Assembly (NCBI GenBank): GCA_026770575.1
Contig: MU657173.1
Location: forward strand, 743,095-807,094
DNA length: 64,000 nt
Direction: 5' to 3'
Origin: Pelagophyceae sp. CCMP2097
Lineage: Eukaryota; Sar; Pelagophyceae
Positions 47,948 to 51,990 of this stretch are shown piece by piece (positions within the stretch are counted from its first letter, which is position 1; every line of letters begins with the position of its first letter). A model generated the notes under the pieces. The model was not told where the DNA came from and ran no database searches. It saw only the letters and a list, made by a program, of their open reading frames with translations. A program made the position numbers and the translations under genes.

Positions 47948-50125
47948 TTACGGACGTGGCGTATCGGTGAGGAACGCCGCGATGAGGCGGACCTGCGCGT
48001 CGAGCATGTGTCTGCCCTCTACGCATTCGCATTTGCGGAAGTGTGCCGCGCGGAGGAAGCGCGTCTTGCTTGGATTCATGATTATCTCCGCACACCTACG
48101 CGTCGTCGAGTTTGGAGTGCGTCGGGACTCGAAAGCAGGCCTCTGAGCGCTCCTGGCATGACAGAGAACGCTCCGGACGCCGGAGTCTTCACAGGAGAGG
48201 TGGGCTGAGGAGTTTTGCGTCGACAGGCATGGCGTCGCCTTCACCGTGGCCGAGCGGCGTGCACTGGACCACGCAATCAAACGCCTCGAGTGTATTTGGG
48301 AGCGCCTCGAGGACGGAAATGCCCGGGTCCAAGTCTGCAGCGAGGCGCTGTGCGCGGCCGAGCGTGCGGTTGAACACGGCGACGGCCGCGCCGCGTTTCC
48401 GCAGCTCAAAAGCAATGGCGCGCGCCGCGCCGCCGGCGCCCAGCAGCCTACGTTGTCGGAAGACGCGTCGTGACACAGTCGTCGCCCCGATCGTCGTAGG
48501 GCGCATCGTCTCGACGTCGTGCGAGGATCCTTCGAGGGTCCTTCGGGGACGCACAGGAAGCGCGCGCGCGGGAGCGCCTCCGCGCCGAGGCTGCTGTGCT
48601 CGACGAGGCCTTGGACGAAACCTAGTTCCGGTTGCACCCCATGCTGTTTGTTCGCGTTGCGGCCACCGTCTTGCCCGGCGCCCCTCGCCTCTACTGGGTT
48701 TGCACCGTCGTGGCTGCGACGGTCGGGGTTCTCTCGAGACGCGGGAAAGCACCTCTGCCGTCAAAGTTGGCGCCGATCAAAACGCCGTCTCGGCATCGCA
48801 CGGCGTTGACGGCACCGATTGCTTGCGCTTCTTCCGTGAGCGCGTCGCAGAGCAAAACGGCTGTCTCCTTGTGCGGCTTGGTCACGACAAATCCGCCGAA
48901 GTTGCGGACGCGCTTGAGCGACTGCAGCGCGGGGCCGAGCGCGTCGGGCGTGACGTCGAGCGGGACTAGACGTCAAGCGCGTCGGGCGTGACGTCGAGCG
49001 GACGTCAAGGCACAAAACGTCTCGCATCCGAGCGCCCGCATCAACGAACAGGGGCTCACCGAGGACGACGTCTTGGGTGCCGAGTTCGCGGAGCACTTGC
49101 GGGAAGATGAGCGGCGTGCGAGTCACATCCACCGGGCACCCGACGATTGCTAAAACACGCGCCGACGGCGCAATCGACTTGACAAACGTGCGGCCGCTCC
49201 GTTCGTGCCCGACGATTGTGCCGCACGCGTTGAGCCGGACGTAGTGCTGCTCGACGTCGGGCCAGCATTCGCTAAAGAAGGATAGCATGGCTTGCGTCGA
49301 CCGTGCGTCCGCTAAAGCGTCGTAGGCGCGGCAAATGTCCGGCCCGAGCGCGAAGCCGTGTTGCGTGCGGGCGTGGGAGTGCCACTGCCAATCCACAGAG
49401 TGTAAATCGAGCTCCGCCTTCCACTGTTGGAACGCCGCAAGCGTGATGTAGGAATCGGCTTCGCCGTGTTCCACCAGCACCTTGGTCTTCAAAGCAAAAG
49501 CAAAGGTGTCTGGCGGTTTTGTGACTTTGTCGCCAAAATCCTCCGTAGGAGTGTCGAAGCCGAAAAGCGGGAGCGGGTCCGCCTGGAGCACGCCGTGGAA
49601 GCTTACTACCGCGTCCAGATCCAACCCACACCGTAAAGCTTCAAAGCAGCAGAGGCCACCGAGGCAGAACCCTATCATAGCAGCGCGGCCGTCGGTGCAG
49701 GTTTGCGCCCGGCCGAGCGTTAGCCACTTCTCCAGCAGCCCTCTGAGAAGATGCTTGTCTCTAAGAAGGTTGTTCATCTCCGCAAAGCAAGCAACGCGGT
49801 CTGTCGGGCCGCGAAGAGCGTGGGCCTTTGGGTAGAGGTCTATGGCGAGGGCGGCGAAGCCCTTTAGAGCGAAAAATCGGGCCACGTCGTCGTCGAACCG
49901 CTTCCGGCCTTGAAAGTTGTGCACCACCAAAACCAGCGGCTTCACCCCGCCGGCGTGGACGAGGAGGCCCTCGTACTCGCCCTCGAGCGTCACCGTCGTC
50001 TCGATCAACCGAGAGTCCGATTGACAGTCGGCGCGGAACTCGAGTTGGCGCACAAGCGCCGCCGCGTCGAACCGCGGCGCGGGCGCGGCGCGGCCGTGGC
50101 AGTCCTTGCCGTCCGTGGCGCTCAT
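47948..50125 (-). CDS. fusion of dienelactone hydrolase and shikimate dehydrogenase
   Basis: One continuous exon (50125 to about 49004) encodes both a dienelactone-hydrolase fold and the start of AroE. Hydrolase residues 40-290: GFCLGG with the nucleophilic Cys154, HGEADSYIT with Asp224 and TQHGFAL with His256, a complete triad. AroE starts near residue 322: RVLAIVGCPVDVTRTPLIFP. It continues in exons 48965-48752 (GGFVVTKPHKE with the catalytic lysine, IGAVNAV, ANFDGRGF), 48621-48555, 48447-48193 (LLGAGGAARAIAFELRKRGA, VFNRTLGRA) and 48095-47948 (IIMNPSKT, EGRHMLDAQ). The junction at 48966-49003 lies in a tandem duplication and I could not make it keep frame. AroE reduces dehydroshikimate with NADPH in aromatic synthesis. 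Confidence 0.8.
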
Positions 50126-50410: not shown

Positions 50411-51990
50411 TCAGACCTCGAGGACGAAGACGAATAGCAAGGGCGCGATCGCGAGGGCCGAGGCGAAGGTGAACGCGGCGCAGTGGACGTAGTATTCTAA
50501 GTCGGAAAATTCTGTCTTTGGCAAAATCCGCCTGGCTGCTTTCAGCCCGATGAACAGGAAAAGCGGCAGCACCACGGAATCAAAATCTTGGGCCATGATC
50601 GTCAGCTTGACCTGCATCTGCTGCGACGTGCATAGAGCGCCGATTGAGACGACGCCGATCATGATTGCGCAGCCTCCCTTTTGCAACGCAGGCAGCGTCA
50701 GCGCGCGATGCCGGCCCGCCACAAGAATCTGCTTCCGGGGGAGTTGTACACCGGATGTGATTTCGTCAAAGGCCCAGACAAACGTCTGTATAGAGCACAG
50801 CGCCGCCGTCGCCGCCGCGCCGAGAGTGCCCAGCACGAAGACGACGACGCCCGCAGCGCCGAGCTCGTGACTGAATAAAAACGCCGCATCTTTAACTGTG
50901 GAGATGGTGACCGTCTCGTCGTCGACGGCCCAAAGAGTGAACGCGGCAGAGGCGGTGATGGACACGCTTGCGACGACGCTGAGTATGATGCCGATCCAGA
51001 TATTTAAACGCAGTTTCGGCAGCCCCGCGACGGTGACGCCTTCATGCACAGCAGCCGAAGACTGGTAAAACAATAGAAACGGCGTCAGCGAGCCGCCCGT
51101 CGCGGCGGAGATGAGTTCGTCGAATTCTGCGTTTCGAGGAAAGACCTTCCACAAGCCGTCGGGCCTCGCCGACGGCACTGAGAGTAGCGCGAGGAGGACG
51201 AATAACGAAAGGAGGCCGCCGAGCGCGAGGAGCACGTACTCTAAAGTATTGGATTTCATCCAAGTCGAGCAAAGCAACCCCGCGGCCGCGAGGAAGATAA
51301 AGGCCGCTTTCGGCACGCCCGCAATCTCCGCGATCGCGACCACGCCGGCCATCTCGCAGAATAAAGTGGCGACGCAGAGGCAACATAGAACCATGAACAC
51401 GGCCGCGGCGGCGGCGGGCCCCCACAAGTCGCGGACGACGCGCATCATGCCTCTTTGCGCGTGGACGCCGACCCGGCCGGCGAGGAGCTGGAAGAGGACC
51501 ATGAAAGGGAGGCACGCGATCTGGAACTTTACAGACGCGAGGCCGAACCTAGTTCAACCGAGTCGCTCCTCACGGCCATGCCTGCGACCATCCCAGCCCC
51601 GCTTCCGACCAAGACGCGGGAACGGACGTGGCGCCGGCGGACGCGTACGTCACGACCGCGGCGATGTCCGTGTTCGTCAGGCCCGCGAGGATACCGGGCA
51701 CGAACCTAGAGCGAGGGATCGGCTGGGGACGATCCAAAGGGCCCCACGCGACCTCGCGTCTGCAAAGGCCCCACGCGACAATGGCCCGACGAAAACGGCC
51801 CCGGTGCGCGGCCTCGAGATTGAGGCAGCTTGGGCCGTTTCCGGCGCTTCCGGCGCTCCGCAGACGCTGGGGCGCGCGACGCCACGAGACCTTCGCTCGA
51901 AGCGGTCCGCTTCGAGGCATCGCCGTGCGCGCCGGGGGCGTCGCCGTCGCGCGGCGCTGCGCCGCGGAGGAGCGGCTCGTCTTCGTCCAT
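50411..51990 (-). CDS. NRAMP-like metal-ion transporter, divergent
   Basis: Exon 2 (51705-51628, FVPGILAGLTNTDIAAVVTY) and exon 3 (51548-50411, FGLASVKFQIACLPFMVLFQ, LLAGRVGVHAQRGMM) reproduce the NRAMP order of helix 1, helix 2 and the Q-LA-R-G loop; about ten more helices follow. The DPGN metal motif of helix 1 reads NTDIA and the MPHN motif of helix 6 is not recognisable (LTPFLLFYQSSAAVHEG), so the substrate may differ from Fe/Mn. Exon 1 begins MDEDEPLLRG, an acidic dileucine motif typical of vacuolar or lysosomal proteins. Its donor is uncertain; no GT fits the phase and a GC donor (for example TC|GCGCGC) would. Confidence 0.7.

Follow-up and report, generated by a model that had tools for sequence, protein, structure and literature searches.

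Structure of the Fusion Gene

The gene described here lies on the minus strand, from 50125 to 47948, of a 64,000-nucleotide (nt) stretch of the genome of Pelagophyceae sp. CCMP2097, an Arctic pelagophyte alga (hereafter, the window; positions 743095–807094 of contig C10 in a 66-Mb assembly of 638 contigs). Its five exons encode a dienelactone hydrolase (DLH) followed by a domain of the shikimate dehydrogenase (SDH) superfamily. Both ends are exactly those of the annotated coding region of P0001, a 582-amino acid (aa) NCBI protein named dienelactone hydrolase family-domain-containing protein; the fusion is already present in this public gene model, for which Pfam domains are computed. By using a script that searches the minus strand for GT/GC–AG joins, we recovered a single exon chain (50125–49060, 48965–48753, 48621–48555, 48447–48193, and 48095–47948). 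Excision of the four introns (94, 131, 107, and 97 nt, all GT–AG) yields P0001 letter for letter. The features of the gene are the following:

49060–50125, minus strand: exon 1, 1066 nt, open, an exact match to P0001 residues 1–355; it holds the start codon at 50125, the entire DLH, the linker, and the first ~36 dehydrogenase residues
49268–49963, minus strand: DLH domain (PF01738), P0001 residues 55–286
49664–49666, 49454–49456, and 49358–49360, minus strand: DLH triad residues Cys154, Asp224, and His256, respectively, located from the alignment of DLH rows
49169–49216, minus strand: linker, residues 304–319, between NACGT and ARVLAIVG, with no stop and no Met
48966–49059, minus strand: intron 1, 94 nt, GT–AG; splicing joins QDVVL to VPLDV
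48753–48965, minus strand: exon 2, substrate-binding half of the dehydrogenase, with Lys388 (48868–48870), Asn409, and Asp424 (48760–48762)
48555–48621, minus strand: exon 3, connecting region FVQGLVEHSSLGAEALPRARF, whose splicing matches P0001
48193–48447, minus strand: exon 4, Rossmann half, with GAGGAARA (452–459) and NRT (475–477)
47948–48095, minus strand: exon 5, C-terminal part, with Gln568 and the stop codon

The initial annotation of this DNA had described one uninterrupted exon leading from a complete DLH into the start of AroE, with the remaining exons supplying the rest, including the catalytic lysine and GAGGAARA. Exon 1 is indeed open throughout, from the hydrolase to the dehydrogenase start (SARVLAIVGCPVDVTRTP), and the exon assignment can now be refined: four further exons complete the domain, Lys388 being encoded by exon 2 and GAGGAARA by exon 4. 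The product of splicing intron 1 agrees in alignment with DAVLVPLDV in P0007 and KAVLIPLDV in P0006, two relatives of the dehydrogenase.

Alignments place ~16 residues (~48 nt), all inside exon 1, between the conserved end of the DLH (NACGT in P0001, P0002, and P0003, NAAGT in P0004 and P0005) and the conserved start of the dehydrogenase (ARVLAIVG in P0001, near variants in P0006–P0010). Met280, inside the DLH, is the sole Met across residues 242–420. Because the two domains share one open exon at such a short distance, there is no room for a second promoter, and a gap of ~48 nt would hardly accommodate the boundary between two separate eukaryotic genes. On sequence grounds, P0001 is thus probably the product of a genuine single gene with one five-exon coding region, which would be transcribed as a single mRNA.

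An assembly error at 48966–49003 had been feared to join two genes. Intron 1, in the dehydrogenase half, contains the whole of this interval, which is ~170 nt or more away from the upstream domain join. A 26-nt perfect direct repeat with a spacing of 38 spans 48938–49001, its copies sitting near the end of intron 1 (48976–49001) and at the start of exon 2 (48938–48963), which gives the 3′ part of intron 1 the look of tandemly duplicated coding sequence. Given the intronic location and the second copy in exon 2, we rejected an artefact at 48966–49003 as the cause of the join.

The Hydrolase Domain

The PF01738 profile matches P0001 with 87 bits, against a cut-off of 21, over positions 5–215 of 217. 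Cys154, Asp224, and His256, numbered as first proposed, are invariant in all five aligned DLH rows; the context of Cys154, GFCLGG, fits G-x-C-x-G-G, and we take the three residues to be the catalytic triad of the family. The N-terminal half is a predicted Cys-His-Asp hydrolase of the DLH family with a complete active site. The four relatives found in the protein search (P0002–P0005, 273–372 aa) all stand alone. P0002 (326 aa, 47–51% identical) shares with the fusion the Cys-His-Asp triad, the NACGT C-terminus, and a KDCHGR motif, which in P0002 lies just after the start.

In an AlphaFold2 model, 20 of the 28 ten-residue blocks of residues 21–300 had predicted local distance difference test (pLDDT) values of 77–94, and residues 180–205 fell below 50. 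The best fold match in the PDB was 7jiz (TM-score 0.82 by target length), followed by 8vb3, 7jka, and 4zi5. The solved DLHs 7jiz, 8vb3, and 4zi5 (P91) have the fold of the hydrolase half but, like P0002 and unlike the fusion, they stand alone and lack a dehydrogenase. Two structure models were obtained: the one from alignment A4 left the dehydrogenase half at low confidence, and the one from A7 left the DLH half at low confidence because that alignment contained no separate DLH rows.

The Dehydrogenase Domain

Spliced P0001 matches PF08501 (61.4 bits; residues 327–411) and PF01488 (34.9 bits; residues 442–512). With PF08501, a Rossmann domain, and the catalytic Lys and Asp all present, the C-terminal half belongs to the SDH superfamily; Lys388 and Asp424 are invariant in 46/46 aligned rows, and Gln568 is also kept in the C-terminal domain. 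The proposal that it is the AroE of the shikimate/quinate branch is not supported in that form, as four pocket positions differ and the genome encodes a separate dehydroquinase–SDH. These positions are Thr335, Thr337, Val382, and Met540 in the fusion; the 63 other SDH loci have Ser (57/63), Ser (60/63), Asn (53/63), and Tyr (60/63), respectively. The canonical AroE pocket (Ser-x-Ser, an Asn before VT, and a Tyr close to the C-terminus), whose residues contact shikimate, is not found in P0001.

Phylogenetic analysis (one quick tree of 140 rows) placed the P0001 dehydrogenase and the Pseudomonas putida KT2440 protein 4k28 together in a 75-row group, separate from the other SDH loci, with a Shimodaira–Hasegawa-like approximate likelihood ratio test (SH-aLRT) value of 100; 4k28 itself has a long branch (1.7) and its exact place is unsure. 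Like most members of the class, 4k28 carries a Val at the first pocket Ser, where the fusion has Thr, and the N-terminal DLH further distinguishes the fusion from 4k28 class proteins. The class perhaps corresponds to the proteins described in the literature as RifI2, a study of which is cited in PMC7144000. The tree and the pocket residues suggest that the C-terminal half is probably not the housekeeping AroE but an NAD(P)-dependent dehydrogenase that belongs to an accessory class found mostly in proteobacteria.

The CCMP2097 genome contains two PF08501 matches, the fusion and a gene on contig C4, and no stand-alone class gene is among them. The C4 gene combines, by Pfam, a type I dehydroquinase and an SDH with SDH_C. 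Its pocket positions are Ser, Ser, Ser, and Tyr, with Ser, Ser, and Tyr at three positions where the fusion has Thr, Thr, and Met. In this gene, as in the bifunctional Arabidopsis enzyme (2o7q, 2gpt), the SDH-superfamily domain is C-terminal, as it is in the fusion, but its partner is a type I dehydroquinase rather than a DLH; in P0001, Pfam detects only DLH, PF08501, and PF01488, and neither a dehydroquinase nor another shikimate-pathway partner. Contig C25 carries a glutamyl-tRNA reductase and C41 a Rossmann-like frame. Further DLH matches in the genome are on C47, C28, and C18, and rescanning of C47 gave DLH as its only Pfam match.

Rarity of the Domain Combination

Relatives long enough to be fusions were searched, and the 7998 candidates with the most shared words were scored. 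Among the 33 fusion-length matches, a DLH occurs once, in P0001 itself, and type I dehydroquinase occurs in 23; matches without dehydroquinase include three with shikimate kinase, one with EPSP synthase, and one with chorismate synthase, and the dehydrogenase domains stand alone in the remaining four. That a DLH is an unusual partner for the AroE family, as had been supposed, is borne out by these counts. We found no report of a DLH–shikimate dehydrogenase fusion in the open-access literature, and the words "dienelactone" and "shikimate" are absent from the main text of the genome paper (PMC9756366). Both families are well known; their combination in P0001 is new and was seen here in one species.

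Four bacterial loci (L037, L056, L058, and L060) were considered as possible fusions because their stop-to-stop frames extend 208–561 codons upstream of the class gene. They were rejected, as the upstream part of the frame has no Pfam match of any kind, and no DLH.

Origin of the Fusion

Within the 75-row group, the fusion and P0006–P0010 lie on one side of a branch with an SH-aLRT of 99; the rest of the group consists of 51 database rows, 17 named loci (16 from Pseudomonadota and 1 from Actinomycetota), and 4k28. P0006 comes from Chrysophaeum taylorii, the sources of P0009 are MMETSP and EukProt, and P0007, P0008, and P0010 were taken as eukaryotic on sequence. P0001 is the only one of these six eukaryotic-looking relatives to have a DLH. 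In P0006 (293 aa), whose dehydrogenase is 56% identical to that of the fusion and shares its VTRT and TKPHK motifs, a hydrophobic N-terminal extension stands in place of the DLH. All five unfused relatives have an N-terminal extension, which is strongly hydrophobic in P0006, P0008, P0009, and P0010: a 19-residue hydrophobic stretch ahead of the domain reaches Kyte–Doolittle values of 1.9–2.4 in these four and 1.06 in P0007 (the start of P0008 may be missing). In P0006, P0009, and P0010, a stretch of basic residues comes after the hydrophobic segment, as in a membrane anchor; to our knowledge, an N-terminal anchor-like segment is unusual for the SDH superfamily.

The simplest story, drawn from this one tree, would be a transfer from bacteria to an ancestor, followed by replacement of the extension by a DLH in the CCMP2097 lineage. 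The tree does not fix the branching order among P0001, P0006, and P0009. The fusion is apparently young and specific to the CCMP2097 lineage.

Function and Alternative Explanations

The best explanation of these data, to which we assign a probability of roughly 60%, is a real single-gene fusion, young in the CCMP2097 lineage, that encodes a soluble two-enzyme protein in which the DLH occupies the place of the short, mostly hydrophobic N-terminal extension of the unfused relatives. The fusion of two enzyme genes can be a sign that their products catalyze successive steps, and coupling of the two halves is plausible. The substrate would be the ester or lactone of a hydroxylated cyclic or polyol acid: the hydrolase would open it first, and the hydroxyl group thus freed would then be oxidized by the dehydrogenase tethered to the hydrolase. 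We propose this order of hydrolysis and oxidation tentatively, as one possibility among several; it is about as likely that the polypeptide combines two unrelated activities. A stronger version, in which the protein is a dedicated channeling enzyme of an undescribed algal route, with a cyclic polyol acid released from its ester or lactone by hydrolysis and then oxidized by a bacterial-type dehydrogenase, seems rather unlikely. Should the two halves work in succession, the fusion would be a pointer to the substrate chemistry of a widespread SDH-like class with an unclear role, and to a bacterial-type metabolic step in pelagophytes; otherwise, it remains a clear and testable example of gene fusion through a short linker in an alga. 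The chance that it reveals a new metabolic step is modest. The interpretation offered initially stands for the single gene, the complete domains, and the unusual partner, and was too specific in its AroE and shikimate assignment.

Several observations weigh against the fusion as we read it. A second species with the fusion was not found among the ~8000 best candidates scored. In the genomes of 17 bacterial loci, chosen by pocket motif from 80 kept out of at least 435 candidates, no DLH match (n = 90) lies within 20 kb of a class gene (dehydrogenase-profile matches of at least 214 bits, n = 29) in any of the 17; the nearest pair on one contig is 43 kb apart (G001, contig C7) and the next 161 kb, and the test is weak because a DLH match on the same contig exists for only 4 of the 29 class genes. 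The top PDB sequence match of the dehydrogenase half is a canonical SDH, 2egg (106 bits), narrowly ahead of 4k28 (103), and structure comparison does not separate 2hk8 from 4k28, so that the class placement rests on the tree and the pocket residues. The mutual placement of the two domains is not confidently predicted (predicted TM-scores of 0.52 and 0.55). The database sources of P0001 are ncbi and nr only, with no transcriptome source. Finally, the CCMP2097 genome was built from Illumina reads with AllPathsLG and annotated with the Joint Genome Institute pipeline, and its published assembly comprises 85.8 Mb in 1716 scaffolds (PMC9756366); transcriptomes were also sequenced in that study. Exon 1 has one match, at 100%, in the assembly used here, which is smaller than the published one, and a copy of it may therefore exist outside these 66 Mb.

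Among the alternatives, the one that fares best retains a real fusion and makes its halves metabolically unrelated: the DLH would have replaced the hydrophobic extension, altering location or solubility, and each half would act on its own substrate. Its odds overlap with those of the reading we prefer, with which it shares the real fusion, and as a separate account we consider it unlikely. The extension found in all five unfused relatives, and its strong hydrophobicity in four, speak for it, as does the failure to see either a DLH–class fusion or a shared gene neighborhood elsewhere, among the scored candidates and the 17 bacterial genomes; on the other hand, a mere carrier would have no need of an active site, and both are kept.

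Less likely still is a dedicated quinate/shikimate catabolic enzyme, whose DLH would open quinide-type lactones or phenolic esters of quinate and whose other half would be a quinate/shikimate dehydrogenase. This makes the initial idea of a DLH linked to shikimate/quinate metabolism specific and is a special case of the fusion reading that we favor. The link itself found no support in comparisons, as a DLH match is absent both from the 20 kb around the class genes of the 17 bacterial genomes and from the five closest unfused relatives. Moreover, Val382 and Met540 replace the Asn and Tyr of most other SDH loci, and other superfamily members use other polyols, 5-ketofructose reductase (7cok, 7col) being among the top matches.

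An artefact, in which a wrong base, a collapse, or the gene model joins two adjacent genes, would fit the short-read assembly and the direct repeat inside the gene, but is very improbable. No splice is needed at the join, which is internal to one open exon, and the repeat is located elsewhere; the ~48 nt between the conserved domains contain neither a stop nor a Met and leave no space for the 3′ and 5′ ends of two genes; and exon 1 matches the 66-Mb assembly once.

Neighboring Genes

Around the class gene of Paenalcaligenes (L011), we found two short-chain dehydrogenases/reductases, a PIG3-type reductase, and a GMC oxidoreductase, which hints at catabolism of hydroxylated compounds; no such theme appeared among the scanned neighbors of L013, L030, L044, and L060. 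Three genomes contain a convergent pair of related dehydrogenase genes, at L037, L044, and L060 (G009 C32, G012 C1, and G015 C27), and an upstream frame in L044 and in L060 matches FG-GAP repeats. In the window itself, an open frame on the minus strand (50411–51553) matches the NRAMP metal transporter family (PF01566, 59.6 bits) and stops 285 nt upstream of the start codon of the fusion.
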